A stretch of DNA of 64,000 nt from Pegea sp. RAD2-039 (lineage: Eukaryota > Chordata > Thaliacea > Salpida > Salpidae), in contig JAQGEQ010000186.1 in assembly GCA_034620365.1 (NCBI GenBank), positions 620,001 through 684,000 of the forward strand. The letters run 5' to 3'. The notes beneath the pieces are model-generated. The model was not told where the DNA came from, made no database searches, and saw only the letters and a program-made list of their open reading frames with translations. The translations under genes were made by a program, and so were the position numbers. Positions within the stretch are counted from its first letter, which is position 1. Every line of letters starts with the position of its first letter. Shown piece after piece: positions 9,701-61,329 of the stretch.

Positions 9701-10005
9701 CGTTAATCCTGATCCTCTTCCACCACTATAACCTGCTCCTCCGCTAAATCCAACTCCACCAGAGTATCCTGCTCCTGAAGCTCCACTTGTTTGGACTTCA
9801 CTTCTAAATACATCAATAAAAAATAAGATTATCGAAATTTTGTCGAAAATCTTCTTTGCTACCTGTAAGTAGTTCTTGTGTAGCTGTTGTTCCCGTTTGC
9901 CATCATCGGGGGAGGAGTTTGGGGTGTTGGGGTCCCAAAGTTTCGTTTATAGCTTGAAGCTCTTTGCTGGTAACTACGTTTGCTGACGGATGATTGCTTT
10001 GACAT
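6777..10005 (-). CDS. Cytoplasmic intermediate filament protein, chordate type
   Basis: Twelve exons in transcript order: 10005-9863, 9803-9533, 9203-9097, 8995-8900, 8773-8617, 8423-8265, 8213-8088, 8013-7924, 7392-7262, 7163-7096, 7043-6928, 6818-6777. They give 501 residues. The head (about 1-120) is Ser/Gly/Tyr-rich with GYSGG-type repeats. The rod (about 121-425) starts with [20 protein letters not shown] and ends with the helix-termination motif [12 protein letters not shown]. The tail contains [15 protein letters not shown], close to the type III tail motif of vimentin and desmin. Coil 1B aligns with vimentin without the 42-residue insertion typical of protostome filaments and lamins, and there is no nuclear localisation signal or lamin tail domain. 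It should assemble into cytoplasmic 10-nm filaments. I cannot place it in a specific tunicate IF class. Confidence 0.95.
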
Positions 10006-17096: not shown

Positions 17097-18715
17097 ATGA
17101 ATCAATCAATAAACGGTTAGTATTTCATCTGATTTAAATAAAAAAATTAACTAAAATTATTTAAAACTGCTAATAGATTTAACAAAACAAAATCGATACA
17201 CTTATATTTCAAGTTAAAGTTATAACTTCGTATCTAGCTTATATTTAGTAAAGAAATATTTAATAAAAAACGTTTTATTTGTTCAGATTCTTGCTGGCAA
17301 AACGCAACATATGAACCAGTTGATAATGTTGTCTTAAGTATTTCTTCTATCCTTATATTTTGTAGCATATTTGGAAATATTCTTCTTCTTTTTATTTACT
17401 ATACTGATAAGAACCTTCGAACGATTGTGGATTGTATAATTGGAAGTTTATGTTGTTCAAACTTGCTATCAACATTTACTGCTCCTATCTCAGCATACTT
17501 GATGTATTTTAACTTTCACAGATGGGACCTCCCTCACCAAATATGTGAGATTGTTATTTTAGTATAAGAGATTATTGAAATACTAAAAGAGTTCATTTTC
17601 TCCCATTTACTTCATTTAATTTTATTACTAAACTTAATTTTTCAATAAACTTATTGATGATTAATATTTTTAGATTTTATTAATATCTGCAGTCTATTAT
17701 TATTATATATATTAATATATATCATATAACATAGGTAAAGTTTATTGGCTTATAAAGATGGCGACAGTCTTTCTAACAGCTCTACACATCTTTATCCTTG
17801 CTGTTTATAGACTGAAAGTTATACTCAGCCCTTATAAGGTTATGGATATTTCATTCAAAAAAACTATTATGTATATGATTTTAGTCTGGATTTTATCAGC
17901 TTGTTCAGGTGTACCTCTATTTCAAACAACTAAAATAATAAAAGGTACTTCATTGCTTTTTAAGGCATCTAAACTAAAAATTTTACATTGATTATTTCAG
18001 AAAGCTCTTGCAAAGAAACATGTCTTTTAAACTCAACTAAAGACAAAAATGTTGCTTCAGTCAAAATTGTTTTTCTGGTTTTGTTTAGTGTCGTTTACCT
18101 CTCTATTAGCGTCATTTCCATTCTATATATAATATTCACTCTTCGCTTTAGAAAGTAAATCTGTTTGGTGTTTTATAAAATAATTTTTAATATAGGAAAT
18201 TAAGATTAATGCTAATAAATGTTTAACTAATGAATAAGTTATTTATATTAAGTTATTAAATTAAATAAGTGTTCAATGATGATTAACAACCATAAAAACT
18301 TCTGCATTCATAACATCAATTTTATATTTTTCTTTCAAGACGTCATCGACAATTAAGTAGTGTCATTGGTCTTTCAAAGGTGGCAGAAAAGTCTCTAGAT
18401 GCAGAAGCAATCATGACAATGAAAAGAAGCAGAAGTAAAGGATCATTCCGAGTAGCAACTGGAAGAAATGTTTTTGGCACTAACCAACAAAAAAAACAGT
18501 TTAAGCAATTTTTTTTGCTGTGTATATCTTTTATATTAGGTTACACACCAACATTATATTATTTAGCCTACCGAACGCTCCACCAGCAACTTATGAGTAG
18601 CTTTTGGATCGAGAAATTAGTTTTTATATTTCAACAATTTTATGAATTCTTGACTCCAATAATGGTAATATTAGGATCAAAAAGAATTTATCAAAGAGTT
18701 AAAAACATATTTTGA
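17097..18715 (+). CDS. Orphan rhodopsin-class G-protein-coupled receptor
   Basis: Five exons (17097-17115, 17287-17544, 17735-17944, 18001-18154, 18340-18715) give 338 residues. A short N-terminus with a potential glycosylation site (NAT) leads into seven hydrophobic segments. TM1 carries the conserved GN (CSIFGNILLLF). TM2 is followed by an extracellular Trp (RWDLP) and the TM3 cysteine (QICKVYW), and the second extracellular loop has cysteines (ESSCKETC). Intracellular loop 3 is long and basic (MKRSRSK). TM6 has the conserved proline region (ILGYTPTLYY). The TM3 end reads AVYRLKV rather than DRY, and TM7 has LTPIMVILG instead of NPxxY. These changes are seen in divergent peptide or orphan receptors. 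The ligand cannot be predicted. The exon 2 donor was chosen at T|GTGAG because only it restores frame and the TM3 cysteine. Confidence 0.85.
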
Positions 18716-19584: not shown

Positions 19585-22246
19585 ATGAAGTACATGTCAC
19601 AAAGACAGTCTACTGAGCCTACTGCAGACCTTCTAAAACAGCTTTCAAAGAGTATGTCTTCTTTTCAAAAGTACAAAAGTATTGTAGCCTTTGGTGTAGG
19701 GGGACTATTATGCTGTTCTTCTTATTTTGGTTGGTACTTTTTCTTTAGGTTTAAGATTTGCTATAAAATATTTTTTATAGGTATTTTAAACCTCCAAAGT
19801 AGTATGAACATATCTGACAATATAGGAACGCTGTCTTCAACCATAATCTATGCTTCAAGTATCTTTCAAGGGATTTTTTTAAATAGACTTCTTTTGCATC
19901 GTTATGACCCAAAATGGGTTTTAGTGATGAGTGAAATTTCGTATGCAGCTTTTTGCATTGGCAATTTTTATCCGAGTAACTTTATATTTTTGAAAATTTG
20001 TTGTTGTAAAACATCAAAGAATTTAAATTAAAAATTTTGTAAAAAATAAGATTTTATATTAATAAACATTTACAAACTGTTAAAGATTAATACACCTAAA
20101 ATTATCACAACAATTTGTAATTTGATCTTATTTGTTTAAAATTTTAAAGCTCTTTACATTATGATCCCGGCTGCCTTGATCTCGTCATTTGGGGCAACGA
20201 TGTTCTGGTCAACTGCTCCTTGCTGCATCCATTACATATTTCTCGATTATTGGGAAAAATTAGATGAAAAAAGTAAATGTAATAAACAATTGGATACTGA
20301 AAAAAGAGTATGGATTGGAAATGTTTATGGAGTTTTGAAATCCTGTCAGGTGACAATAAACTTACATTTAATTTCAAGGATGAAATGTTTCCAACTAAAA
20401 ACTTAGCAATTAGTTTATTATCCTTATATGTCTTACAGGTTTTTGGAAATCTTTTATCATTCATTGCTTTATTTGGAACCAAAAATCTGGACAGTAGTTT
20501 GACCACTAACTCGAGTCTTTTTCAAGATATTAGTGGTTGTGGAAGCAATTACATTCAGGTAAAATGAGAAATGTTTAGCAGATAAACAGCTCGTGTTGTT
20601 CAAGCAGAAGTTGAACCGTTATAATATTGCCAATATTGCCATTTCTAAACTGTGATTTTTTCCTTGTTTATATTATTAACAATCTATGTAATTGTTCACT
20701 GTTATATGCTTTGGGGACTACTGAAATGCCATATGTTACATCTTTTGCTTTCTATATTTCTGACTAAATAGATGTTATTTGTGAGAATGTGTGTTAGCGA
20801 GAGGTGCTCTCTTCAGGCACCCTCTTTTGCATTTATTGTAATAAATCAATAAAATAAATAAGTGACTTATAATATCGACCAATTTATATTTAAATAAAAA
20901 TTTTTATTTGTTTGTTTTTACAGAATTCAAGTAATATTGAGAACTATAGACGGTACGTACCCAGTAAAACATCTATCTACACGTTAACGTTTACTTTACT
21001 TGGAATACTATTAATCGGAATTTATATTCATATAGCATGTCTGCCAGAGTTAAAACCAAAAGGTGAAAATTATTTGATAAACAAATAGTAAATTACTGAC
21101 AAGATGTATTCTCATTATTTTTACTATATATTAGTCAAAACTTGAATTTATACTTTTAAATATATAATGAAATTGTTGTTATCATTTAACTTTCAAATCA
21201 TTAGTGAAATATCTGTAACTTTACAAATATTAGTTTGATCTTATTGTTTCTAAAATAAAATAAACATCTTTACAGATAAAGAAGAGAATGAAATGGGTAT
21301 GTTAGGGTACTTTGCAGAATCCTTGTCAAAAATTTGTTATGGTTACTCAAATATAAACAATTTATTGCTTGCTCCAGCAGCTTTTTATTATGGAGTTTTT
21401 ATTTCATACAGTTATGCAACGTTTACTCAATCATTTGTATCTTGTGCAATCGGAATTCATCAAGTTAGAAATTCTTTAATTCGCTTACATTAAATTTAAT
21501 ATTTATGTTTTAAGTAGTAATTATTATAAACAAAGCTTTGAGCTTATTAACGTCATTTAATTCTACTAAAACTATAGAATACAAAAGGAATTAATATTTC
21601 TACTTTTTTTTTTGATTTTGTATAATGTGATAATGAATATAAGTTTCTAAAAGTAATGAGATAAATGATAGGATCTTCTTTTCAGGTTGGACTTAGTATG
21701 ACTATCAGAGGAATCACTGGTTGTATTTTTTCTCCTTTATCTGGCAAAATTATGCACAAACTTGGTATCTTGTCTCTTCTTGTCTTATGTCTCATGATAG
21801 ACTGCACTACTTTTGCTGTTCACCTTTTTTGGCATTTAAATCCATCAAATTCTTTTTGGGTTTTTATGTTAGCTGCCGCTTTAGGAGCAATGGGTGGTTT
21901 GTGGGGTCCTTTAATAACTGGTTAGTTTGAAGTTATCTATTTAAAAAGAAAATAACCAAAATAATTTTTGTTGCTAATTGATTTCAGATAGTTTAAAAAG
22001 TCATTTTTTATAGCTATGTATTTGGAGTCTTTTAAAGAGGATACAGAAACTGCGGTGGTCTTAGGAAATTTAGCCACAAATACTGGAATGGCTCTAGGAT
22101 TTCTTCTACAGCAAACTTCAACAGTTCGACAATTTCTCTACTTTTTAATTTCTCTATCTGTTGTTTCATCTTTAAGTTGTATCGTTGCAGAACAACTAAT
22201 CAAACGAGAAAGATCTCGAATAGAAAAAGAATCACTTCTCAAATAA
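19585..22246 (+). CDS. UNC-93-like major facilitator superfamily protein
   Basis: Eight exons (19585-19729, 19781-19975, 20150-20349, 20439-20558, 20924-21062, 21276-21463, 21686-21920, 22014-22246) give 484 residues. UNC-93 family signatures include ILNLQSSMN and IGTLSSTIIYASSIFQGIFL after TM1, NFYPTLYIMIPAALISSFGA, VFGNLLSFIALFG, LLLAPAAFYYGVFISYSYAT, and FVSCAIGIHQVGLSMTIRG. The exon arrangement yields about 11-12 membrane segments, with a cytosolic basic C-terminus (IKRERSRIEKE). Family members act as regulatory subunits of K+ channels in nematodes or as trafficking chaperones (UNC93B1); others, such as UNC93A, are poorly understood. This protein looks closest to the UNC93A/UNC-93 type. 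The first intron is 51 bp. Intron 4 (20559-20923) contains a truncated SINE. Confidence 0.9.
20781..20860 (+). mobile_element. 5'-truncated SINE, 3' tail only, in an UNC-93-like intron
   Basis: From GTGAGAATGTGTGTTAG onward this closely matches the 3' part of the full SINE at 62300-62496 on the opposite strand, with only scattered substitutions over about 50 bases through GGCACCCTC and GCATTTAT. It includes a GAGAG...CTCTC stem and ends in an A/T-rich tail with AATAAA-like repeats. No tRNA-like head is present upstream, so the copy is truncated. Confidence 0.75.
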
Positions 22247-23995: not shown

Positions 23996-25166
23996 ATGGA
24001 GTTAAGATATGCTGTTAAAAATCTTTATAAAACTGTAAGTAATATCAAGTTATACTCACAAAATCATATTTTGATAACATTTTATCAAATACAACTATTT
24101 ATTTTTGAAAAGTATCAGATGAAGGGTTTTCTTTAATCAATTTTTCTTCAATAGTTGTTAAGTTTATAGTGTCTGAATCATCCAAGGGAACTAAAGATTT
24201 AACTCTTTGGAGTAAAACAATAATTTAAATAGAATTATTTATATAAAAGATTTCTTTCATATTTCAATATATAATCTAATATTTTTTATAGTAAATTAAA
24301 ATGGCAAAAAAGATCAAGGTGGCTATTTTTGTTGAAGCTGGATTTATGTCATCAATTTTTTTAACTTGTTACTCTTTTCTTGTCTCTATTTGGGACCCTT
24401 AAAAATTCTGGGCCATTTTAAACATTGTCTATGCTTCTTTATGGTTGTCTTTATACTCAAATAAATAAGTAAAAAAATAATCATTTTTAAGTAAGTTTTC
24501 ATTTTTAAATTTTGAGTATTTTTTTTTCTTATTTTTCCAAATATTGCTTTAAAGGTCACTTTAATTTTCGATTTTTACAATAAGTTTTTATCTTTCATAA
24601 GACTTTTCTTCAATTTTTATAGCTTTTAATGGGTTAGTCATTATAATACTTATTTAGTTGGCTATATTGACTTAGACAATTTAGGTAAACAATTTTTTAA
24701 TGGTCTACTTTATTTAATGTATAAAATATTTGAAAATTATAATTAAAAAATACTTTTTTAAGTATGAAGCAACAATTAATAGATTCTAAAACTTTGCGTT
24801 AAATGACAAAATATTCGTTGAAATAGTTATAAATTTTCAAATAACAATTATCACTAAATTAATATGAATTTATCAAAATGAAACTTGAAAACAAAAATCT
24901 TTTTTCAGTTAATATTTATGGGAAAAGAATACCCCAAAGGAGGAAGATACTTTAGAGATCGATGTCATGCTGCTTTCATGAAGAACAAAAACGTGTCCGA
25001 TGCTGACGAGATACAAAAGCTGATAGATCGAGGAAACTTTGTGGTTAAGGAGCTGGAAGCACTTTATCATCTACGAAAATATAGAGCGATGAAAAAACGA
25101 TATAATAACTCTGAAAGCTTTGAAGAAATCCTCATTAAAAATATGAAAAAGTTTGATAAAGATTAA
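23996..25166 (+). CDS. ETFRF1: LYR-motif protein ETFRF1 (LYRM5)
   Basis: Two exons (23996-24034 and 24909-25166) give 98 residues. Exon 1 supplies the LYR-type start [14 protein letters not shown], and exon 2 the diagnostic [15 protein letters not shown] and [20 protein letters not shown], which align closely with human LYRM5/ETFRF1. This mitochondrial matrix protein of the LYR family binds the electron-transfer flavoprotein and can displace its FAD. The first residue of the LYR motif region is altered (LRYAV...NLYK) but the helical pattern is retained. The start in exon 1 rather than the in-frame ATG upstream of exon 2 is preferred because it completes the LYR helix and the splice sites are consensus (GTAAGT, TTTTTCAG). 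The 874-bp intron is long for this region. AATAAA follows at 25181. Confidence 0.9.
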
Positions 25167-36854: not shown

Positions 36855-39800
36855 ATGTCAAGTGATAGTGAAGAGAATAGTTTTTCGGTTCTTCCTCTAA
36901 AAAGCCCTCGAAAAAGAGGAGAAGTCCCTAAAAATACAGTAAGTTGAAAAGATCTTTTTAATGCTGTTCTTGAATTACATAATAAATTTTGAAGTCTCTT
37001 GAATCTAATTTTAAAATGATATCATTTATTGATAAATCTTTTAATCTTATGTATATTGCAAAGTTTAAGGTTAGAAAATATAGAAAAACTGTTTTCATAA
37101 TCTTATGAGAATTTTGTTTACTATTTTCATTTTCAATAAACTTTGTGAACATATTTGTAACTTGTGATATTAGCTACATCATAGTTCAACTTTCTAACTA
37201 ATCACTTATATACTTTTTAATTTATGCTTATCTTATTGATTGTAAATTTTAGCTTACTTTATTTAAACTATTATTGATCTATAAAAACTTCTTGATAAGC
37301 AATACTAAGTCATCATGATAAATCTTGTGTTAAGGACTTACTTGGTTATTTATTTGCACAACAAAGCCCATAACATTTTTAAAAACTTCTAAAAATTGTT
37401 ATTTATTTTTTCTTATTTTTGTATTCCTTGGGAGATTAAAACAACTACAAAAAAATAAGGAAATTATAACACTTCAAATGTAAAGTTAGGGATATAAAAA
37501 TATGAAATTAAAGAAATTAGTTCCTCAAATCATACTCTTAATTTCATTTTAATTAATTTTATTTGGAAATATTTTGAACTTTATAAATTTCTTTTCCTTA
37601 TATATGATTTTTCTAATGCAGTATTGCAATAAATTTATTTTTATAATTTTACAAATCAGCTTATATAAAATATTTGTTTAAATTACTTCCAATTGCAAAA
37701 TTTTCTAGATTTAAATTAATAAAGATTGATTAAAAATTTATTTTCTTTTTATCTGACTTTTTAGTACTATCTCTAAAACTACATTTACTATTAAAGTAAC
37801 AAATTCTATCAAAGCTTATTATTTATTGGTTTATAGTTAAGATCAATCTTCTATAACTGAAATGTGATTATTAATTAACATACTTATGAGTTTTGATACT
37901 AAAGATAGACTTTTTTATAGCAGTCCAAAAGAGTACGTAAGAAACTGGTTTCTGATGGTAGTTCTACTTTTTTTGATTTAGTATTTGAAGGAAAAATTGC
38001 TAGCTCAACACTTGTTGATGATTGGATAGATACTTACCAGGTTTATTTATATTTGCTTATTTGGTTATCATTTTATCATACTCTTGTCCCCCAGAAAAGT
38101 TGTAATGAAGGTCTTTTAGAACTGATTCAGTTCTTCATCAATGCTTCTGGATGTAAAGGAACAGTAACCGCTGAAATGCTAGAGGAAGCTACAGATGGAT
38201 TTCAAGACATTATTAAAAAGATGACTGAAGAATTTGATGAGGTGGTTATAACTGTTTAAATTGATTGGTGATAATTAAAATTTTCAATAATTTGCAGGAT
38301 AGCGGGGATTACCCTTTAGTCGCCTCTGGTTTGCAATATAAACGTTTTAAAAGTAGCCTGGTGGATTTTATAGAGGTCAATAGTCATTTATTATTTCATT
38401 TTTATCTAAACCATATCTTCCATAGACTTTAATCAAACATTGCCAATATGAAATAGTGTTTGATGAGTATCTCATGGATAATTTCATTGGTTTTCTGACT
38501 GAATTGTCAACTTCACAAGTTAGAGCTTTCAGGCACACAGTTACATTTTCATGTATGTCTACCTCTTTCTTTTTCAATCAATTTCTTCAATTTCTTTTTT
38601 ATTTTCAGCAATGAAACTTATGACGAGTCTTGTTACAGTTTTTAAGCAACTAAATAATAATACAAATAACTTCCAAAAACAGTTTGATGCAGAAAATAAA
38701 AAGTCCTCACCTAATCGTGCCCTTGAAAAACTAGATATATTAAAAAACAAATTACAAGAAGTGAGAATGAATCTTTCAAAGTTCTTTCTTCTAAAACTAA
38801 ATCTTTTGTAGCTTGAAACTCAAATGGAACGTATCCTGAGTATGCTCGATATGATATACAAGGTTTGTAATTGTGTTTTGTACGCGTTGGTTCGAAGCCC
38901 ACATCGTCGAAGGTAAGGCAGGTCTCGATGTATTACGCCACCTATCGAGCGCGAATCCTGCCACTACCGTGTGGTTGCTTCTGAAGAAGCAAGATTATGA
39001 GAGTAAACTCAAACGTAAAATCTACAATCTGTTGACCTCAGTGTGACTGTCCAAGGTCTTTAAACATTAGTCCACTTGAATCAAAGCGCATGCGTAGACA
39101 GGACTACTGCTTCAACTTACAAGGCCAAAGAAAATTAAATTATTTTATCATTTTTTAGGGGATTTTTGTCAATAGATACCGGGACGTGATCCCTAATATA
39201 AGGGCACTCTGTCTTGAGGAACTTGGACACTGGATAAAAATATTACCTGAAGTATTTTTTACTGATAGCTATTTAAAATATATTGGTTGGTCACTTCATG
39301 ATAAGGTTACTAATTCTTCTCATTATCTCGTAAATGTTTCATCAATTATTGACTTTTTAGATCAAAGAGGTCCGTCTGAAATGTTTGCAAAGTTTACTAA
39401 ACTTATTTGATAGTGATGAAGATATATTAAATAAGCTGAGGATATTTTTATATCGATTCAAAACCAGATTAGTTTCTTTGGTTAACGACAAAGAACCTGA
39501 AATTGCTTCAATTGCTGTTAAAATACTCACAAATGTCAGGTTAGTTTGTAAAGAAGTTTTTAGAGAGACTGTTATTGATACGGATTTTGTAGTAAAGCTG
39601 AATATCAGTTATTGACTGATGAAGACACAGATAAAGTCTTCCGTCTTGTTTATGCAAGTAACCGATCAGTAGCTTCTGCTGCAGCAACATTTCTAAACAA
39701 CGAACTGTTTCTAAATAAGGTGAAGGTTTGAAGTTTACACTTTTCAATTTCGATTTACAAGTTATTAACAGGATCATACACCTGTTTATACGAAAAGTGG

Positions 39801-42800
39801 AAAACGAAGAAGCTCTAACGCCCCGTTGCTCGCAGATTTAGTTTTTTTCTTTATTGAGAGTGAAGTGAGTTGAAATTATTTGAATAATTTCAAATTATTT
39901 TCAAATAACTTCGTTTATAGCTCCATGAACACGCGACCTATTTAGTTGACTCTTTATGGGATGTAGCTTCTGGAATATTAAAAGATTTTGAATGTATGTC
40001 TGATATGCTACTAGAAGAACCATATGATAATGATAAGATGGATGACAAACAAGAAACTGCACTTGTGGATATCATGGTGAGCGCAGTGAAGCAAGCAGCA
40101 GAAGGAGTCCCTCCATCTGGAAGACACAGAGTAAATCTGTTTCAAGTTTGACAATTCTCTTATTTTGTTCACTTATATAGAAATCGACTACAAAAGAAAA
40201 ACGTCAAGCTATCGAAGATAAGGTTACTCTAACAGAACATTTTATTATTCAACTTCCGAAACTGTTGAATAAATTTCAAGTTGATGAAGCTAAGGTTGAA
40301 AATTTGTTGCAAATAGCAAGATGTTTTGATCTTGAGTTTTATACAACTGGAAGGTATATTTCGATGAATTCCAGCTTCTATCAACTTCATATTTTCTTTT
40401 TAGATTTGAAAAGTATCTAGATGATCTTCTAGAAGAGTTGAGATTAATTATGGAAAAGCATACAAGCGAAAAAGTAAAGATACAAATTAATTCAATAAAG
40501 ATGATGTTTGTTTACACTTTTAAATATCTTTTAAGGTGCTTCTGCAAGTTTCTAGAACTTTAAAATATCTTTCGAATGTCGAATATTCTATTTCAAGCAC
40601 TGTTTTACATAAGAAGAATATTCTGGTCGATTCCTGGGTAGAAAAGTTTCTGGTCAATTTCGGCATCTTTCAAGAAGCTGTAATATTTCCTGATCTATGT
40701 TTGTTAAAAATAAACAAATTGTTGCCCAGGGAGAAGAGGCAGACACAGAAGAGATTTACAACGTGGTTCATCCTCTTAAAAAAATCGTCATCTTGTATTC
40801 TTTCAATGATTTATCATCTTTGGATCTATATAAACATGTAAGCAATTAGATTTTGAAATCTATGATTTTGTTATTTGATTTTCATCTATTTCAGATGGTC
40901 AAGATACTTACTTTGTACAATGAAAATCCAGATTTTATGCCAGAAGTTGTAAGTTTATCTTTAATAATTTGATAAATAATAGTTTCAACTTCATCAAAAT
41001 CATCATAAAAAATTGAATTTTTATAGATACTCCGATTGGCATACAAGTTTCTTTATCATGATTTCATATATGGCTTATTATGCCTCAAAAGACAGACTCA
41101 AGATCCTAATCTTACACAAGAAAACAAGATCAGTGTCTCTGAGTTCCGCGTAAGACTAAGAGATTACTTCATAAACTGCAAAACAATCCTGGCATCTTGT
41201 TCCCTGGAATCGGTAAATACTTCATCAATTTATTTCCCTCAAATTCAATTAAATCACTTTTAAGGTTCGAATCGAATGTTATTTGTCTGTTTGTGACATG
41301 TTGGTGTACTTCTCACCTCAGCTTGCTCATTCATATCCTACATTAAAGTCTTTAGTGTTAAAAGCATCTGATCAATTAGTAGTTGATCTGTTGGACTTTG
41401 TTCGAGACTACGTGTTTGTTGTTGAAGAAGAGAGTAAGTTGTTTAGGATCTGTTTGTTTTGATCATTTTCTATTTATATATCCAGAAGTAGATGAGGCAA
41501 CATCATTTGATTCATCTCACTTTCGAAGATCGTATCTTGCTGCTATTTGCAAATTATTTGTTTATAATATGATCAATCTAACTTATGCATCGTTCATCTT
41601 TCAACATTATATCAGGTTCAAATCAATTCTTTCATCATCCACGGTTTTGTTCTTATTAATTTATGTTCTAAGATTTTATACTGATTATGGGGATATTATA
41701 AAAGAGACAATTAGTCGATCAAGACATCATAACAAACTCCGGTGTGCTCAGACACTAGCATTAAGTCTGATGACGGTTTGTTTTTAATTTTACAACTAGT
41801 AGTTTGTCAAGTGTGATAAATAATGTTTGTCAAATACAGCTGTTTCGTGAAACTGTTAGAGAACAAGGAGGTGTCTTAGATCATAGCTCACAAGAATATG
41901 TTCACATGAAAGAGTTAGCTCGCAGATTTGCTCTGACCTTTGGACTTGACCAAGTTAAAACTCGAGATGCTGTTGCTGAATTACACAAGTAACGTTTTGT
42001 ACGAAGCAGTATTGTTATAATATTTAATATTTGTGTAATAGAGAAGGAATTTTATTTGCTTTGAAACGTGAAGATGGCGAAGAAGATAGTGAGACAATTG
42101 TACCTCCTAATCTCAGCTTTCTCGGAATTCTTGTAGAGTTTTCTGCAAAACTTATGCGTCAAGATAAGAAAACTGTGTATGTATAAAACTTGAGTTTCTG
42201 TATGAGTTTATCTAAGTTCTATTTTTACTGATTTAAAAAACTAAATTTCAGAGTTCAATATCTCGATAAGCATATCAAAAGCTCGATGTTATCTGATCAA
42301 GATCAAGATTGGATTCCTTTAGTAACTTACAGAAATTCTCTCTTACAAGGTGTTAGTAATGATGATGTAATGAAAGCCCCAGCCCCACCAAAGGTAGTTG
42401 AGATGATTTCTTTCATTCCTCTGAATTTGTTTGTAAAATATTTCATCTTTATTTTCATTTAAAGGGTCGTCGTGGAAGAAAAAAGAAAGTTCCAACTGAT
42501 AATGACACTAGTGTCCAAGCTACTCGTCCTATGACACCACAAACAGACCGTCCAATGACTCCACAAAGATCTGAACAAACGAATCCACAATCTCCAAGAT
42601 TTTCGCCCCAACAGTTATTCCAAGAAGAAAATTTTTTGAACCAACCCTACCAGGTTCTTCAATTCATCTTTAAGACACAAATTGAGCAACTCTAAAAATA
42701 TTTCCAGATCTCCCAACAGGTCATTGGTCAACCAAAACTTCAATCAACTGTTACCAGATCTGGTCAGGACCGCACTGCCTTCTATCCACAGTAAGTCAAA

Positions 42801-44084
42801 GGTGTAGTGACCACCTTGTGGTTCACTTAGTTTTATGTTTTATCAGTAACGAAACGATAGATGAGCTTGAGCATCTTAGACCAAAAAAAGCGCAAAAAAC
42901 GCCGATTAAGACACCAGTTAAGCGAAAGAAAAGATCTAGCGAGAAGTCTGGGACACCTCGAAAGATTCGATCGAATTTGAATGATAGATTTGAAAGTTCT
43001 AAGAAGCGGGAACAACCTTCTCGTATCACAAAGAAGTCCATCCGATATAATATGTCTTCTGATTCAGATTTTGAAGATGAAGATGTATCAGATGGTAGTC
43101 ATGAGAAAGTTGTAAGATCAGAAGATTTGATTGAGGAGTTTGAGGATAGTGGGTCTCGCCGGGAGGATGTTGATGAGTTTAGTGAAGATAGTGGATCCGA
43201 AAAAAGAAAATCTGATCAGATAGAAGATTATGAAAATATTGTTTCTGATTTGATTGATAATATACAAGTAGATAAGTCTAATAAGAAAGATGAAGGAGAG
43301 AAAGATGAGGATAAGAAAGATAAAGAGTCCTCGGAGAACCCATTTAAGAAGATTTTAGATCAGGTTTATTCGGACAGCCAATCTAACAGTTTATTTGGTG
43401 GTAATTCTGAAAGGTTAGTTGATGTTTAAAGATTATCAAATGAAGTTTAGACAAGTCAGACTACAGATAACTTGTTCATCTTCAAACTTGTGTAACTTTC
43501 ATTTGACAAAAAACTAACTTTTGCAGCTTTCAACAATCACCTGGTTCTGGTTATCAACTACCAGTACAATCACCTGGTTCTGGTTACCAACTACCAGCAC
43601 AATCACCTGGTTCTGGTTACCAACTACCAGTACAATCACCTGGTTCTGGTTACCAACTACCAGTACAATCACCTGGTTCTGGTTACCAACTACCAGTACA
43701 ATCACCTGGTTCTGGTTACCAACTACCAGTACAATCACCTGGTTCTGGTTACCAACTACCAGTACAATCACCTGGTTCTGGTTATCAACTACCAGTACAA
43801 TCACCTGGTTCTGGTTACCAACTACCAGTACAATCACCTGGTTATCAGCAAGTTGTTAGTCCTTACAGCGTCACTTCATCGCAATCGGCTCGAGATATCG
43901 AATCTCCGTTGCTAGGAACAGATGATCCGTTTCTTTCATTCACAGCAAATATACAAAAAACGCCCCGCCCCTCTCAGGTAAGTCCCATCAGCAAGTTGCC
44001 AGTGATATAATCGAATAGTTTTAAACTTTGTAATTTTAAGTCATTATTAATCGTTTTTTCTATTTTCAGTATTATGGACGTTAA
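36855..44084 (+). CDS. Cohesin subunit STAG/SA, divergent paralogue (copy A)
   Basis: Twenty-nine exons give 1460 residues: 36855-36938, 37921-38040, 38095-38241, 38298-38375, 38426-38552, 38609-38760, 38812-38862, 39159-39305, 39361-39539, 39593-39719, 39772-39864, 39921-40130, 40181-40353, 40404-40473, 40536-40679, 40730-40837, 40895-40948, 41027-41212, 41265-41433, 41486-41615, 41673-41775, 41840-41988, 42042-42176, 42252-42393, 42465-42653, 42708-42790, 42847-43413, 43527-43977, 44070-44084. STAG signatures: [45 protein letters not shown], the stromalin-conservative domain from about residue 254 ([30 protein letters not shown]), and [19 protein letters not shown]. It binds the cohesin ring (RAD21-SMC1-SMC3) in the nucleus. 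The middle is strongly diverged from STAG1/2. The tail (1027-1460) is P/Q-, then K/R-, then D/E-rich, followed by an 11-residue tandem repeat, ending YYGR. Divergence suggests a specialised, perhaps meiotic, role. Confidence 0.93.
38112..38240 (+). repeat. Identical tract 1, STAG copy A member
   Basis: 129 bp within exon 3 are identical, base for base, to 47719-47847 in copy B. The flanking intron sequences and the first codons of the exon are unrelated between the copies. Partner of the tract in copy B. Confidence 0.85.
38871..39130 (+). mobile_element. tRNA-derived SINE-like insertion in STAG A intron 7
   Basis: Intron 7 is nearly 300 bp, while neighbouring introns are 50-56 bp. The extra sequence is GC-rich and starts near a perfect RNA polymerase III B box, GGTTCGAAGCC (38889-38899, consensus GGTTCGANNCC). 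No A box precedes it, so the head is truncated. The body contains a perfect hairpin TTGCTTCTGAAGAAGCAA (about 38973-38992). The equivalent copy B intron lacks it. Boundaries are approximate; it has no clear similarity to the SINE at 62.3 kb. Confidence 0.65.
39853..40126 (+). repeat. Near-identical tract 2, STAG copy A member
   Basis: 274 bp covering the end of exon 11, all of the 56-bp intron 11 (39865-39920) and almost all of exon 12. It matches 49784-50057 in copy B with only two substitutions, both third-position and synonymous (GAA/GAG, GCA/GCT). The intron is identical. Confidence 0.9.
41670..42489 (+). repeat. Near-identical tract 3, STAG copy A member
   Basis: About 820 bp from the acceptor of exon 21 into exon 25 match copy B 53236-54051, including introns 21-24. 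Intron 22 is identical; introns 21, 23 and 24 differ by one to three changes each. The only cluster of differences is the end of exon 24. Left of exon 21 similarity stops abruptly. Confidence 0.9.
43533..43829 (+). repeat. Coding 33-bp minisatellite, nine units
   Basis: Nine tandem 33-bp units in exon 28 of STAG A encode the 11-residue repeat [11 protein letters not shown] (one unit with A instead of V; TAT/TAC varies in some units), followed by a partial unit. Units are nearly identical, implying recent expansion. Both strands stay open across the array, so antisense frames here are artefacts. Copy B has no counterpart. Confidence 0.95.
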
Positions 44085-47033: not shown

Positions 47034-50000
47034 ATGGCATCTTTTCCGGAAGGAAGTGGGAGTGAATATGAAGATGAAACAGATTTCGCAGCTAGAAACT
47101 CCAGAAAAAGAGCACGATTCCAAAAACCAACAGTAAAATCAAACTTTTTTTTATGACATTTTTCAGTTAAATTGATTATCAAATATTAAGTTTTAGGATA
47201 CATCTTCGTATAAAGTCGTTTTTAAATAGTTGATGTGAAAATTATTTCTACCTTAAATAAATTTTGCTAAAAAATAATCAAAAAAAACTTTATTAGCTCG
47301 ATTTTTTGGTAATAGGCAAAATTTAAGAAGATATAATTATTATTATTTTACAAATGTTTTCCTAAACTTTGCCATAATATAAAGTTAAAAATACTTAGAA
47401 ATAAGATTTGTAAAACAATGAGTTGTATATGTACATAAGAAGCTTGCATAAATTCCTCAGTTGACAAAAGCAATCATCTTTTAAAGTAAAAACTAGCTTT
47501 GAGTGATTAAATTTCTGTTTATAGACTTCAAAGCGAGCTCGTCAACAATTGATACAATCTGAAAGCAATGTTTTGTTGTTTGATATTGTTCGTCAAGGAA
47601 AAACAACTATCTCAAGTGTAGTAGATGATTGGATAGATGCTTACCAAGTATGAATGTAATCGTTTGAACTTAAAATATTAAAAGTAATTTAATTGTAATA
47701 GTCAGATAGAAGTACAGCTCTTTTAGAACTGATTCAGTTCTTCATCAATGCTTCTGGATGTAAAGGAACAGTAACCGCTGAAATGCTAGAGGAAGCTACA
47801 GATGGATTTCAAGACATTATTAAAAAGATGACTGAAGAATTTGATGAAGTGATTATAAATTTTGGAGTTTGATTAGTTTAGTTGAAACTGTTAATGTTTT
47901 GCAGGATAGCGGGGATTACCCTTTGATAACATCTGGAATTCTCTACAAGCGTTTCAAAACTAACTTTTGTGAATTTGTTCAGGTTTCTTATAATCTTATT
48001 AACATCTAATCTAATCCGAGGTTCTTAAAACTAAATATGTAAAGCTCAGGTTATTTTGAGCGAAGTAACACTTATCGGAGACCTTGGTCATAACCAATCA
48101 CTTACAACATAAGTTAAAATATAAGTTGTTCTATTTCATCAAACTGAAATAGTTTGAAGCATAAATACCCAAAATGAAAACTTCTAAAGCTCTCTTTGTT
48201 ATTATCAACATCAAATAATTGAATTAACAAAATTAAAGCAATTGTTACTCATTCAGAAAACCAATAAGAAATTTTGGGTCTTTTTAACTTATTAAAGTTT
48301 TTTTCGAGATAGTAGGTTGTTCACAAAGACTCGCATATGTTTGAGAATCACTAGATCATGTTATATTAGAAATTTATTTTATTTTTTTCAGACTTGTTGA
48401 CATCTAACTTTGATATATTATAAACAGGTCTTAGTACGTCAATGCCAATATCAAATTATATATGATCAGTATATGATGGAGAATGTGTTGACTTTATTAA
48501 CTGAACTCAGCAATTCACAAGTTCGTGCTTTTAGGCACACTTCAACCCTTGCAGGTAACTTTAATCAAGTTTTTTGACAAACTACTTTTCATATTTTCAT
48601 TTTCAGCTATGAAGTTGATGACCGGACTTGTAAATGTGGCTCTTCAGATTAGCGTGAGTCTTGATAATACTCAAAGACAATACGACGCTGAAAGAAATAA
48701 AGATATAAATAAAAGAGCTTCTGGAAAATTGGATATTTTATTAGAAAAGCGAAAAGAGGTTATTGATTACCTGATACTAATTGATATTGTCATTAATTTC
48801 AATTTTATTTTTGATGTAAAGTTGTTTGAATGTAAAAAATTTCTAAGATAAACTTTTAAAGATAAATTTGTCATTTGTAGCTTGAAGAACAACAAAACGA
48901 TATTGAAACGATGTTGAACGGAATTTTCAAAGTTAGTTTTGAAATATAGAGTTACCTGTTCAACTTGTTCACTTGCTAAATTAAAACCTTTCTTTCAGGG
49001 GATCTATGTCCACAGATACAGAGATTACATCGCTGATATTCGAGCAATCTGTATGGAAGAGATTGGATGCTGGATGAAAATGTTCCCCAAGGTCTTTCTT
49101 ACTGATAGTTATCTGAAGTATGTTGGTTGGACTTTACATGACAAGGTAACTGTTGTTGAAGATTACGAACTTTGTAATAAAAACTGATAATTCAATTTAG
49201 CAAAAAGAAGTTAGAATGAAATGCTTACAATCACTGATTGGATTATACAGCAACACAGAGTTGATGAGTGACTTGAAACTATTTACGAGCCGCTTTAAGG
49301 ACAGAATTGTGTCAATGATATTAGATAAAGAATATGATGTAGCTGTACACGCGATTAAATTACTTGTACTCATCAACAAGTATGTAACATTCTAGAAAAT
49401 TTATTTTCTTTATTTTACTATCTTTAAAGTTTTATCCAAAAATTGATTCCATTTTAGTTTTACAGTATATAAATATAAGGTTATAAAAGTTGTAAGTTAA
49501 TTAAAGTCTTATTTTTCAGCAATTGTAATTATAAGGTGCTATCAGATCAAGATTCTGATAGTATTTTTCAACTTGTCTACTCCTGTCATCGCCCTGTGGC
49601 TGTAGCAGCCGCTGAGTTTTTGAATATTCAGTTATTTCTTAACAAGGTAAGCTTCAAATATCACTGAAAAGTTGAACTCTTGACACAGAACTATGACTTT
49701 AGGATTATACACCTGTTTATACAAAAAGAGGAAGACGAAGAAGCTCTAACGCCCCTTTGCTCGCCGATTTGGTTTTGTTTTACATTGAGAGTGAAGTGAG
49801 TTGAAATTATTTGAATAATTTCAAATTATTTTCAAATAACTTCGTTTATAGCTCCATGAGCACGCGACCTATTTAGTTGACTCTTTATGGGATGTAGCTT
49901 CTGGAATATTAAAAGATTTTGAATGTATGTCTGATATGCTACTAGAAGAACCATATGATAATGATAAGATGGATGACAAACAAGAAACTGCACTTGTGGA

Positions 50001-53000
50001 TATCATGGTGAGCGCAGTGAAGCAAGCAGCTGAAGGAGTCCCTCCATCTGGAAGACAGGGATATCATAAGGTTCTTTCTGAGTTTTCACGTTGATTAAAA
50101 CTTCTTAAAACAAAAACAAAACAGAAAGCTGGCAATAGAGAAAAGAGATTGGCTATTGAAGATAAAATAAGACTCACTGAACACTTTATTCTGCAAATTC
50201 CTAAACTTTTGTCGAAGTTTCAAATGGATAAGGATAAGGTTGTTGGTCTTTTACAAATACCAAGATACTTTGATCTTGAGTACTACACAACAGGAAGGTA
50301 TGTTGAAAGTAGTTTTAACATTTATTTACAAAAATCTGGCTGCTAATTAGTTCTGTTTTGATGCAAGATACATTTGTGATCATAAATAAATTTTAGAATA
50401 ATTTTTTTGGTGAATTAGAAGTTGTATTTTGAATTAATAAATAATTTCACGATTGATGAATTACAGACGTGAAAAGCACCTGGAAGATCTTCTGGAACAA
50501 ATGATAACTATTGTAGAAAAGCATTCGCATCCTGAAGTACTTTTTCGTTATTTTATTTAAAAATCTAAAAAAATAAAGTATTTTTTCAATTTGTCAAATT
50601 TCATTAGAGATTTTTTTTAGGTTCTCGAGCAAGCTTCTAGAACATTTAAATATCTATGTGATGAAGAGTATTCAATCTATAGCACAGTCTCTCATAAGAG
50701 GCGGACATTGATTGATTTATGGGCAGAACGCTTTCAGTTGTACTTTGGAATTTTTCAAGAAGCGGTGAATATTAATAAATTTTAAGTTTTATAATTTCAT
50801 CTTCAACTGATTCATTTGAAATCTAACAGGGTGATGAACCTGATGATGAAGAGATTTATAACACTGTACAAGCTATCAAGAAGTTGACTTATCTCTATAC
50901 ATTCAATGATCTAACATCTTGGAAACTCTACCAACCAGTAAGTATTCATGATAGTTACTAAAAATTAACTGGTTGAAAATCAACATAGAATATTTTAACA
51001 ATGTTTATAAATATGTTTTTAACTTTAATCTAAAAATATTTTGATTTAAAACTTACATTAAATTTACGTAAAACCTTTAAATAAACATTTAAAAGAATTC
51101 TTTTATACGAAATTTTATTTTATATTACATTTTTGTAAATTATCAACAGCATCAAATTTCTTGATAAAATCTTTATTAAAAATTTTTTATTCTTTCATCA
51201 AATTCTCATTTGATGTTTTCACCGATTTTTATTCGTAGCAAAATGCTGGATAAGCTTTCTCAAACTTTTCCAACATACAAATTCATTAGAAATAAAATAA
51301 TTTTAATTGTCGTTAGAGGGCGCAAGCGAGTATTTTTTAAAGCTTTTATTTGAACATGTGCTGCAAATTGAACCTACAGTAAAGCGCTCAGTTAAACTAA
51401 ACATCGATTTTGTGAATTTGAATATTTTCAAAGTCAATAGAATTCTAACTCTGTCATTTTAGTAATGTTATGTTAGAAGTCATTAGATTCACTGGTTGCA
51501 AATAAAACTTTTAAATTTTCTAACAAAACTAAATCAGAGTTTAACATAAATTTGTTTCTCTGTTGAGCAATTAATATTTTTGTAAGTTATGATATTAATA
51601 ATTTTTTGATAAGATCTTTTTAAGTTTGTTTTTAATTTGAATAATTTAAAATGATTTAAAAGCTACAATTTTTTTTTACATTTTAAAAATTGAAAATAGA
51701 AAAATAATTTTTGCAAAGAGATTTATAAAATATTTTCAAATAAATTAATCAAATTTTTAGCTTGAGATTCTTTTATTTAATTTATTCTTTATAAAGGTGA
51801 ACGAAATTTTAAAGATATATAATGAACGTGCCGACTCCGTTCCAGAGACAGTAAGACAATTTATTGGATATAATAAATAATAATTTAATTTTAAATATAT
51901 TAATACTTGTTAATATTAATCCATAAAAAACTATTTCACTTTAGTATTACCTGACAAAAATAAACATTTATCTGATTTAAACGTTATTTCCTATAAAAGG
52001 TGAATTATAAACTTTTAATCATTTAAAAAAATGTTTTGTTAAAAAGCAGTGCTTCCAAATATAAAAAAATAAATGGTTTTAAAAAATTTACAATCAGAAA
52101 CACTAAAATAATTTTTATTTAAAATAAGTTATTTTTCAATTAAAATATTTTTCCAGTTACTCCGTGAAGCCTGCAAATTTATCTACTATGACCTTGTATA
52201 CGGACTAGTAAAAGCAAAAAAGCAATCTGAAAACAATGGCTTAGATGCCTCTCAACAAGATTATATAATTAACATCTCTGATCTGCGTCAACGAGTATCA
52301 GAATACATCCGAAATTGTGAATCACTGCTAAACTATTGTCCTCATAAATCGGTATGAAACTTTCATGCTGTCTTTTAAAGGTTCATTGGTTTGCTTTTAG
52401 GTTCAGGAAGAATGTTACATGGCAACGACAGATATTTTGGTCATTTTCTCTATTCAGTTAGCCTACTCAAACCCAACCTTAAAACCTCTGGTCCAAAAAG
52501 CATCTGACCAATTACAACATGCCCTGTTGGATTTCGTTCGCGATTTTGTGTTCATCGTTATCGATGAAGAAGAAGGTAAGTTCCCAGCCAAAACTAGCTA
52601 CATCTTAACCAGTGTTTATAGATGAAGATGACACTGCAAAGATTGATGCACTGCACAAGAGAAGATCACTTCTTGCAGCAGTTTGTAAACTTTTTGTTTT
52701 CAATATGATTGATCTTACTCTTGCTTCTTCAATCTTTCAACAGTACATCAGGTATAAATCACAGTTTTGATCTTAATGTAGAAAATATATTTTAATTGAA
52801 ATTTAAAAAGTGATTATTTATTGGTTACCAAATCAATTATTAAAAAAAAAATTACTAAATTAGACTGATTACTAAATAAAATTCAGTTTCATAATTTGTG
52901 TACTTTGATTCAAAATATTTTGAGAGTATCTACTTTTTATTTATCATAAATTTTGTATTAATTTTGTCAAAAATTCCTAAAATTATAAAAGTTGTTTAAA

Positions 53001-56000
53001 TAGAAGCTTTATACCGTGACTATTTTATATCATTATATAGTTGACTAACTCAGTAAAAATGTTATGCAATCACTTTTTAAATATTAAAATATTGAGCTAC
53101 ACCCTCTACTGCAATCACAAAATTATCTTAGATTAAATACTTTTATAAACAAATAAATAAATTACAGAACTAATGGTTTACTAAATCATTTAATTACTTC
53201 AGATTTATTAAACAAGTTTTCACTAAAATTGTTTAAAGATTTTATACTGATTATGGGGATATTATAAAAGAGACAATTAGTCGATCAAGACATCATAACA
53301 AACTCCGGTGTGCTCAGACACTAGCATTAAGTCTGATGACGGTTCGTTTTTAATTTACAACTAGTAGTTTGTCAAGTGTGATAAATAATGTTTGTCAAAT
53401 ACAGCTGTTTCGTGAAACTGTTAGAGAACAAGGAGGTGTCTTAGATCATAGTTCACAAGAATATGCTCACATGAAAGAGTTAGCTCGCAGATTTGCTCTG
53501 ACCTTTGGACTTGACCAAGTTAAAACTCGAGATGCTGTTGCTGAATTACACAAGTAACGTTTTGTACGAAGCAGTATTGTTATAATATTTAATATTTGTG
53601 TAATAGAGAAGGAATTTTATTTGCTTTGAAACGTGAAGATGGCGAAGAAGATAGTGAGACAATCGTACCTCCTAATCTCAGCTTTCTCGGAATTCTTGTA
53701 GAGTTTTCTGCAAAACTTATGCGTCAAGATAAGAAAACTGTGTATGTATAAAACTTGAGTTTCTGTATGAGTTTATCTGAGTTCTATTTTTACTGATTTA
53801 AAAAACTAAATTTCAGAGTTCAATATCTCGATAAGCATATCAAAAGCTCGATGTTATCTAATCAAGATCAAGATTGGATTCCTTTAGTTACTTACAGAAA
53901 TTCTCTCTTACAAGGTGCTGACGATGATAGTATTAAAGCTCCAGCCCCACCAAAGGTAGTTGAGATGATTTCTTTCATTACTCTGAATTTGTTGGCAAAA
54001 TATTTCATCTTTATTTTCATTTAAAGGGTCGTCGTGGAAGAAAAAAGAAAGGTCCAACTGACACTGATAATGACAATAATGTCCAAGCTACTCGTCCTAT
54101 GACACCACAAACACACCGTCCAATGACCCCACAAACACATCGTCCAATGACACCACAACACGTTCACAATTCAATGTCAAATCGACAGATGCAAGGTTCG
54201 ATAAACCAACAACAGGCAGCAACTACTTCTTTAACACCACAACAAATACATTCACCACTGCCTCAAAGTCCCATGACCCCCCAACCTCAACCTCATCATG
54301 GACGAATGACCCCACAACAAAGTCAGACTTCTCAACCTCATCACACTATCAATCCCCAATCACTTCTGGCACCTCAGCATCAAATCACAATGCAAGTGGT
54401 GAGCTTTTTTCTTTAATATTTTAAGATTGAAGTTTCGCAAATATTGAATGATTATATCTTTCACAAAGATGACTCCTCAAGAAGGTATTTCATCAACTCA
54501 ATTACAACCAACAGTAATTAGAACAAGCAACAACATCCGTCAGATTTATGAAGATCATACAATGTCTTATCATGAGCAGTTAGTATCAATTTATTAATCA
54601 CTTTTTACAATTGGAATTTTTATGTAAAAAAAAACTTACTCTAAAACGAACGTTGCGCTTAGTTGTAGAGAGCACTTACTAATGGCAGTGTTGTTACTTT
54701 AATGATATGCTTATCAAAACAACTCATCCAATAATCATATACTCATGCGGCAATCCAATAGACTTTCAATTTTTCTTAGCTTAGAATTCTTTTATAAAGT
54801 AAATATAAAATTGATAAATTATTTAAATTCTGATATTTCAAGAATTTCATTCTTATCTTACTTTTAAAATATTTAGAAAAGAAAGTATATGTAGTTTTAA
54901 AAATTCTTGGTTACATAACAAATTATAGATTTGATAATTAATTGACTATCTAAGACTAATTATTGATTACTAAAAGGTATCAACCGGTTAATTTTTTGCA
55001 TTTGTCAAATCATTTGCTAACTAAATAAAGATGAAAATAATATTTTTATTATAAACTGTTTATACAATTATAACAGTTTGTTTTTACATTATTAAAATTA
55101 TCAAACATGTTTTTATCTGAGATAAGTAACAAGTAAATTAAAAATGCTTTTTTAAGCATATCTTTTAAGAAAGTATGGTATAAAGAAATCAAAAGATTAA
55201 ATATAATTGAAAAAAGATTAAATCTATTGTCATAAGATTTTAAAGATTAGAATGATGGTAGTAAATTTGCTGAGAGCTAGTATCAGGACTAAAAGATGAT
55301 TTCACATTAGATTATTTTTAAATTATTCATACTTTTTACAATTCAATCCTAGTTATCAGTATCATATACAAAAGTATTTTTACTCCAGCAAGTAAACATT
55401 TATTTGAATTAAATAAATATATTTAAGATATCCTATTTTTGTTCGCTACAATAACAAGAAAATTTACTTAATGTCAAAATATTTACTGGCAAATTACTTT
55501 CTGATTTGTAAACAGATATAAATTTTTTTAGTTTTCATAAACGGAGTATTTACTATAAACATTGAAGTATTTTCATCACTTCGAACCTTTTTTCATCACA
55601 TTACAAGTCTGTTTATACAAGCATATGAAACAAAACTTTACATTCCTAAGGTTTCCACATCGTCAATTATATCTCATAAAAACAATATGTTACAAAGGAT
55701 ATTTCTTCTTGTCGCTTTGTTTTTATCAAAAAAGCTGAAACGTCGGGTTAAAAGTTCTTTTATTTGTAAATTAACTCAATAATATTTTTATTGAATTATT
55801 TAGCAGCTAAAAATGTTCACGACTGTCTACTCTGTTTGATATTTTAAGCTTTTCAAAGCATAGTTGGTATCTTAATGAATAAGCTTTTAGTACTTTGTAG
55901 ATCCATCAGCGACACTTGGCTCTTAATACTTGACCATCAACCTATTTATGAGTGTAGAATATATCTTGACCTTAGGGTCAACTTAATTAATAATTTAAAT

Positions 56001-59800: not shown

Positions 59801-61329
59801 CAAAAATTTTAAAAATCTTTCTAGCCATCAAAATAATCGAAATTTTTTTGTTAAAAGAAAAAATTGTTGAAGTAAAAAGCGTGAAAGATTTGAGATTGAT
59901 GTAGACCTGTAGTTGATGACTCGACTAGGTTGAGGTTGCCTCGCCAAATCAGCTGTTAACTTGTTAAATGATATGATAGATCTTGTAAGATTTGATCCCT
60001 CTCGTAATCTTGCTCTTGTTAAATCTTCACCTAACTTTTCAGCTCCTGGAAGACGTATTACAGAGAAAACAGAGCGATTAGGGAGCGGGTTCTCATCAGT
60101 CATCTGAAGATCACAATAAATTGATGAAGATTAGTAAATGAAGTTTTCTATTTTCATTAATTTCTTGAAAATATTTTGGATCTGATTTTTAAGCAAATCT
60201 GGCAATTCAATTACATTCGATTATCAACTCATGTAAACAATTACTATTCACAATAAACCAAGGATTTAAAATACTTGAAAAGAGAATGTAACTAACCATA
60301 TAAAGTTCAAGTTGCATAATATAAGTAGAAAAATTTTTAGCTGAACCCAATTCATTTGTAGAGTTGTTTCTCGATGACCATGCTTGCCAGTAAGCTTTAA
60401 AAAAGCACAAAACGTTGTTTGGTGAAGCTAATCTTTAAGACTTTCTCACCTGTAACTGCTTCACTTGTATCTCGACATAGGACATATTGTAAATTTTTCA
60501 CAAATGTTCCTTTTTCAGCAGAGCTTTTTAGTTCAAGTGGACCGTTGTAACCTCTTGCTAAACAAACAAAATTGCAAAGTTTAAATTGAAACTTAAGAAG
60601 TTAGTTGTTACTTGTCATCGCTCCTCTGTTAGCAAGCAAATCTTTGATGTTCTCGTTGTATATCTCATAATGATAAAGAAGAAGTCTTGCTCTTTCTTCA
60701 AATGGTCGAGCTGATACATGAGGAAACGAATTCGATCTTTCTGTTGAAGTAGAAAACAGTTAAAACTAATAATTGATGTAAAGTAAAAACTTACGTGAAG
60801 GATTATTCTCATTTTGTTTTTGAATATTATTTGTTACATATCCAATAGCTTGCGGAACAATACCAGGTTCGGAATTACCTGTTTGTTCTCCTGTCATAGT
60901 AAAAGATTTTCCACTACCTAAAAGAAAATAATTCTGACATTTAGAAATCAATTTGTAAGTTAATTTGTAAACTAAATGATCATCAACAAGACTTTACAAA
61001 CCACTTTCTCCATAGAGAATGACACAAGTATTGAAACCGGCGATAAATAGGTCTAAGAGAGGCTGAACTGTTTTAGTGAATATTTCTGTAGTGCTGGAGT
61101 CTTGTTGAAATAATATATTAAAGCTGAAGAAAAAAAAAGCTTTATGTAAAAATTTTGAAGAAGTTTTTATATCAATTTCAATTTAAAACAAAATATCAAA
61201 TCAAATCAGAAATTACTTGTGAGAAGCTCCTCCTCTTTGAGATTGAACTCTATTTCCATCAATAATAAAACTACCAACCAGTTCACCAGCAACTGTTGGT
61301 CGTATGCGACCAACTATATCAAGATTCAT
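56881..61329 (-). CDS. CCDC78: CCDC78-like protein with degenerate kinesin motor domain
   Basis: Twenty exons give 974 residues: 61329-61217, 61123-61002, 60917-60795, 60740-60612, 60557-60450, 60394-60297, 60103-59907, 59691-59511, 59455-59327, 59212-59081, 59018-58932, 58872-58693, 58643-58371, 58317-58123, 57992-57867, 57816-57697, 57643-57528, 57476-57258, 57210-57046, 56992-56881. Residues 1-357 are kinesin-like: P-loop GESGSGKS (76-83), YEIYNENIKDLL, DSKLTSILEDILGGNCKT. Switch I (NExSSRSH) reads NELGSAKN, and switch II (DLAGSE) reads RLPGAE (248-253), so ATP hydrolysis is probably lost. The rest is coiled coil. The C-terminal third matches human CCDC78, a deuterosome/centriole-amplification protein: FRSREEQLTKAAHNFKKQ, KHESLLIHYR, FDIGPEP, ERERADLLTRVNIAEQ, YIDSHLAKYKMEIVRLRR. 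The 47-bp intron 57211-57257 and the last intron (56993-57045) were chosen by phase and by this match. A role in ciliogenesis is inferred. Confidence 0.88.

Follow-up and report, generated by a model that had tools for sequence, protein, structure and literature searches.

Recurrent interlocus (non-allelic) gene conversion between two old tandem STAG paralogues is, very probably, the best explanation for the pattern of identity within this gene pair. The window (the whole 64,000-nt stretch of DNA that was analysed) carries two STAG genes, A and B, which follow one another head to tail on the + strand and have the same 24 aligned coding exons. Three tracts, together about 1.4 kb, stand out from an otherwise diverged pair as blocks of silent-site and intron identity beyond chance, T1 by its silent sites only, and their partners are 9.6, 9.9 and 11.6 kb apart (Table 1). 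Near-identical introns and silent sites in a pair that is saturated elsewhere cannot have their source in protein constraint, whereas nonreciprocal transfer fits them. T3 contains the block that had been picked out in a sequence-only reading; T1 and T2 are further tracts beyond it.

Table 1. Positions, in window coordinates, of the STAG genes, the near-identical tracts and other features of the window.
Feature	Position	Strand	Content or basis	Differing columns
STAG gene A	37924-42542	+	24 coding exons alignable to B; spliced alignment, open frame	
STAG gene B	47525-54110	+	same 24 coding exons; closer to human SA-2	
T1, gene A	38112-38240	+	exon 2	0/129
T1 partner, gene B	47719-47847	+	window self-comparison, silent codon runs	
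T2 middle part, gene A	39770-39852	+	exon 10; partner start 49701	11/83
T2 recent part, gene A	39853-40126	+	end of exon 10, intron 10, most of exon 11; partner end 50057	2/274
T2 partner, gene B	49701-50057	+	window self-comparison	
T3 recent part, gene A	41670-42352	+	exons 20-22, introns 20-22, most of exon 23	8/683
T3 3' part, gene A	42353-42567	+	end of exon 23, intron 23, exon 24, start of TPQ-rich tail	23/222
T3 partner, gene B	53236-54135	+	window self-comparison	
24-bp TPQ-coding repeat	54093-54158		tail of B; the matching stretch of A (about 42530-42570) contains the end of T3	
33-bp tandem repeat	43533-43843		downstream of gene A; 9.4 copies, 98% match; open frame encodes an 11-residue repeat	
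Probable intermediate-filament gene	7261-9946	-	weak match, below cut-off, at 9521-9946	
Scanned open frame	17238-17564	+		
Scanned open frame	18314-18712	+	weak SCAMP match only; may be the end of the 7tm_1 GPCR gene	
Scanned open frame	21665-21922	+		
Scanned open frame	24882-25163	+		
Scanned open frame	59831-60130	-		

The models of A and B were built by spliced alignment with the gene B protein, which pairs their exons one to one, and they comprise the exons that align between the copies, numbered from the first such exon. All 23 internal introns are GT-AG in A and in B, as placed by an aligner that admits only GT-AG or GC-AG. To judge from open frames, gene B probably starts with a further exon near 47034 and may run on through Q-rich exons to about 56369. 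The STAG, SCD (stromalin conservative domain) and HEAT_SCC3-SA domains occur in order and above the Pfam cut-off in both proteins, and about 960 residues of protein B align with human SA-1/SA-2. A search of the 105.7 Mb assembly (387 contigs) for the STAG family gave at least four exon matches, all in A or B (6 candidates, 6 scored), and a search with the tract DNA gave at least two places (2 candidates, 2 scored). A third copy as donor was rejected on these lower bounds.

Both proteins look like working cohesin STAG subunits. SA2 Y297, R298, L329, K330, W334, D338, L366, F367 and F371, which we take to be conserved essential surface positions, are identical in A and B, as is D793, with the single exception of L366, which is L in B and I in A. 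Since nine of these ten positions are unchanged in A, this copy probably still joins cohesin. D793 is the kleisin-contact aspartate, equivalent to STAG1 D797 (PMC7266993). Kleisin N-terminal matches (Rad21_Rec8_N, three in all) are found at two loci of the assembly. The stronger, C8:728814-729175, is on the contig of the STAG pair, about 45 kb past the end of the window; the other, C19:321373-321489, is weak (E 8.5e-4) but over the cut-off.

Further genes in the window were sought by a domain scan of ten open frames, including those given in Table 1. A rhodopsin-type GPCR (7tm_1) and a LYR-motif protein matched over the cut-off, and an MFS protein and a kinesin motor below it. The probable filament gene has Filament matches at C8:627261-629015. 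Filament matches occur on five contigs, a hint that the animal (its genes suggest that it is one) does not belong to the arthropods; weak coiled-coil matches were also found in 5 of 14 control genomes, none of them over the cut-off. The window has a GC content of 26.9%, and this low value, the short introns, the 105.7 Mb of sequence and the filament genes would suit a monogonont rotifer such as Brachionus (gene GC 26.4-29.2%; PMC6555955), although only as a guess. The assembly yielded no match to COX1, to two parkin zinc-finger families, which were equally absent from the control genomes, or to a bdelloid rotifer spliced leader with up to 2 mismatches allowed. On contig C1, an inverted pair of intermediate-filament-like sequences (3452000-3458000 and 3472500-3478000, about 20 kb apart) has about 98% identity in matches of 3.8 kb and 1.0 kb, and is either the product of an inverted duplication of recent date or a further case of conversion.

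Outside the tracts, A and B are far apart. Over 673 codons ps is 0.744, pn 0.277 and amino-acid identity 55%. Relative to human SA-2, A has 113 lineage-specific changes in these regions and B has 44 (chi-square 30.3), and the excess change of A is concentrated mainly in exons 4-8 (63 A-specific against 11 B-specific changes, compared with 34 against 23 in exons 12-19). As to a possible meiosis-specific role of A (STAG3/SNM type, defined by germline-restricted expression and function), what was seen is this faster evolution only. Uniformly low intron divergence, which would have undermined the idea of sequence transfer, is not what is found, since 5 of the 23 introns are near-identical between A and B and the other 18 are not. 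Measured against 20 shuffles each, 11 of these 18 fall below the shuffle maximum, introns 15 and 16 tie with it, and introns 2, 4, 5, 9 and 17 exceed it. The clearest excess is that of intron 2, adjoining T1 (70.7% against a maximum of 58.7%); intron 4 reaches 64.4% against 59.0%, and intron 1 is at shuffle level. These five introns may hold a trace of older exchange or of retained homology. The non-tract introns are short, so that shared splice signals also weigh in.

T3 is the longest tract. The sequence-only reading had described a near-identical block of 820 bp containing four introns, flanked on the left by moderately similar exons and an unrelated intron, and each part of this description holds. 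By blastn, 41670-42489 and 53236-54051 are identical in 801 of 821 columns, with 6 gap columns. With all columns counted, introns 20, 21, 22 and 23 have identities of 96.9, 100, 98.7 and 95.8%; their shuffle maxima (20 shuffles each) are 57-63%. To the left, exon 19 has an identity of 73% without gap columns or 71% with them, and intron 19 (numbered 20 in that reading) is 57 bp long in A and 487 bp in B and aligns no better than shuffles. The exons then numbered 21-24 are probably our exons 20-23 and the start of exon 24. Its argument that such intron identity goes beyond protein constraint is borne out by the silent sites, Ks being only 0.024 in exons 20-22 against the ps outside the tracts. 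Ks rises to 0.085 in exons 23-24, where A and B also differ in length, by 3 coding bases in exon 23 and 6 in exon 24. On the left, T3 begins at 41670, which falls on the 3' splice site, 3 bases ahead of where the modelled exon starts. Its right edge can be given only roughly, as lower similarity (about 90%) continues to about 42567 in A and 54135 in B, ending 25 bases past the modelled part of exon 24 within the repeat-like TPQ tail.

The other two tracts are shorter. T2 contains intron 10, which is identical at 56 of 56 positions, so that the five tract introns together range from 95.8 to 100% identity, with 63.3% as the highest value reached by any of their shuffles; Ks is 0.37 in exon 10 and 0.05 in exon 11. 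T1 lies within exon 2, its left edge being 17 bases inside the exon. It has no intron, and its Ks is 0.04.

To delimit the tracts, the aligned exons and introns were segmented into three states, whose rates were set by hand; very unequal introns were compared at their ends only. The old state holds from the start of the alignment to 38111 (83 of 202 columns differing), between T1 and T2 up to 39769 (567/1383), between T2 and T3 up to 41669 (666/1605), and over 42568-42700 (65/146); the recent and middle states make up the tracts as listed in Table 1. Silent sites give the same picture. Among 679 degenerate codons that specify the same residue in A and B, the codon itself is identical in 304 of 316 inside the tracts, but in 184 of 363 elsewhere. 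Runs as long as the six longest (51, 50, 50, 45, 40 and 27 identical codons) were reached in 0, 0, 0, 3, 26 and 2,104 of 100,000 permutations, a null that is conservative because tract and non-tract codons were shuffled together. Of the six outer tract edges, four are no more than 4 bases from the end of a modelled exon. The five introns inside T2 and T3, the abrupt edges and the shared gene structure are all seen directly in the one assembly used.

These features suggest how the exchange may have proceeded. An old tandem duplication would have given rise to the two STAG genes, which later exchanged short stretches. A double-strand break in one copy could have been repaired from its same-strand neighbour 9.6-11.6 kb away, with homologous exons serving as the sites of invasion and capture and the introns between them being copied along, and the tracts would have ended where introns cease to match. 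Edges near exon ends would be expected from such a process because exons are the islands of homology that remain for recombination.

A recent conversion had been proposed for T3 alone. Transfer between the paralogues stands, but a single tract does not: the three tracts show two or more levels of divergence, which makes several events more probable than one. Divergence also steps within tracts. The two parts of T2 are unequal (11/83 against 2/274; Fisher p 3e-6), as are those of T3 (23/222 against 8/683, p 4e-9; 14/273 against 5/625 for substitutions only, p 1e-4, with a hand-set border), all these tests using borders drawn from the same data as were tested. The middle part of T2 is thus either older or patchily converted, and the steps in T2 and T3 suggest events of different age, with patchy heteroduplex repair as the alternative. 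The intermediate divergence of 10-13% in exon 10 and the 3' part of T3 is also what would be seen if the tract segments had never diverged, having been converted frequently and continuously since the duplication instead of being re-homogenised after divergence. The matching introns within the tracts would sustain the high homology needed for this. T1, however, is flanked by the poorly matching introns 1 and 2, and at least the T1 event must therefore have acted on a nearly isolated exon. Continuous conversion thus seems the less likely course, although a substantial chance is left to it.

Transfer from the slowly evolving B to the faster-evolving A is the somewhat favoured direction. Where human SA-1 and SA-2 have the same residue, gene A matches it at 148 of 219 sites in the tracts and at 246 of 520 outside (p 5e-7), while the corresponding figures for gene B are 147/219 and 319/520 (p 0.16). 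The tracts thus resemble the slow copy, since their rate of human matches is like that of B outside the tracts and unlike that of A. This protein evidence comes mainly from the N-terminal half, because in the C-terminal half outside the tracts the two copies match human nearly equally (A 101/235, B 116/235). Base composition counts against B as donor and leans towards A: GC3 in the tracts (87/344) is nearer to A outside them (192/673, p 0.30) than to B (219/673, p 0.017). The lengths of the tract introns favour neither direction (p 0.08 in comparison with A, 0.46 with B).

It is possible, but unlikely, that selection shapes the mosaic, with conversion tolerated or favoured in some modules and purged in exons 4-8, where A would be gaining a function of its own. 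The concentration of A-specific changes in these exons is in keeping with this. The same pattern would follow, however, from relaxed constraint or from missing DNA homology, and exons 12-19 are also unconverted yet show no such excess. Moreover, Y297, W334, F371 and D793 of SA2 are unchanged in A.

An assembly artefact, in which one tract was built from the reads of the other copy and the second block does not exist, is very unlikely. Assemblers do err at near-identical tandem paralogues, and the assembly alone was examined. But pasted copies would be identical, and A and B show scattered differences inside T2 and T3, among them the length differences in exons 23 and 24; T1, with no difference, lacks this protection. 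The frame is open in both copies, the window contains no N, and the searches, whose counts are lower bounds, revealed no extra or haplotype copy elsewhere in the assembly.

Strong purifying or codon-level selection on the tract exons, to be considered in view of the conserved cohesin subunits that they encode, has a negligible chance of being the explanation, and purifying selection alone was rejected: the introns of T2 and T3 are as identical as the exons; in B, exons 4, 5, 7 and 8 have a higher similarity to human SA-2 (0.70-0.81) than the tract exons have (0.33-0.64, the lowest value being drawn from just 9 residues of exon 23), and nevertheless these four are unconverted and only 47-67% identical between A and B; and in locally conserved stretches outside the tracts silent codons are identical in only 21 of 32 cases. 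Nor are the tracts simply the most conserved exons, as the identity of B to SA2 shows no difference between the 7 tract exons and the 16 others (Mann-Whitney p 0.69). The C-terminal core that the sequence-only reading saw in T3 is thus not a uniquely conserved one.

Interlocus conversion is a known process, of which the STAG pair is a clear new example. Among the best matches in the open-licence literature on STAG and cohesin, no report of conversion between STAG genes was found. A mosaic of divergence under gene conversion is described for GOT1p1 and GOT1p2 of the copepod Tigriopus californicus (PMC3728101). That account concerns transaminase genes compared across populations, whereas here a cohesin subunit is involved, in one assembly, and introns have been copied in two of the three tracts. 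The Dlx pair of Capitella teleta also consists of linked paralogues, in which Geneconv picked out one tract of 150 bp, taking in part of an intron, and another of 31 bp (PMC3199776); as described there, those genes are inverted tail-to-tail and the tracts are short, unlike the same-strand STAG pair with its about 1.4 kb of tract. Duplication of STAG/SA genes is itself familiar. The cited survey lists vertebrate STAG1-3, Drosophila SA and SNM, and, in Daphnia pulex, five SA genes that include two tandem pairs (PMC2680839), and these are likewise independent and lineage-specific, with tandem cases included. The difference is that the cohesin section of that survey presents the SA genes without gene conversion, a term that occurs 0 times in its main text.

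In most of its exons the STAG pair is ancient, in the rest it is recent; trees or dates drawn from different exons would thus disagree strongly. In an alignment to human SA2, T1 corresponds to residues 114-154, T2 to 441-549 and T3 to 892 to at least 1027, the end of the human sequence shown. It is conceivable, though rather improbable, that repeated conversion holds these three modules (114-154, 441-549 and 892 onwards) identical to the housekeeping copy, while a region at about 181-399 is shielded and carries a new, perhaps germline-specific, cohesin function. Which regions of STAG are free to specialise is a question otherwise tackled by mutagenesis. If the mosaic is indeed selected, it points to the part of STAG that may specialise and the part that has to stay common to both copies.
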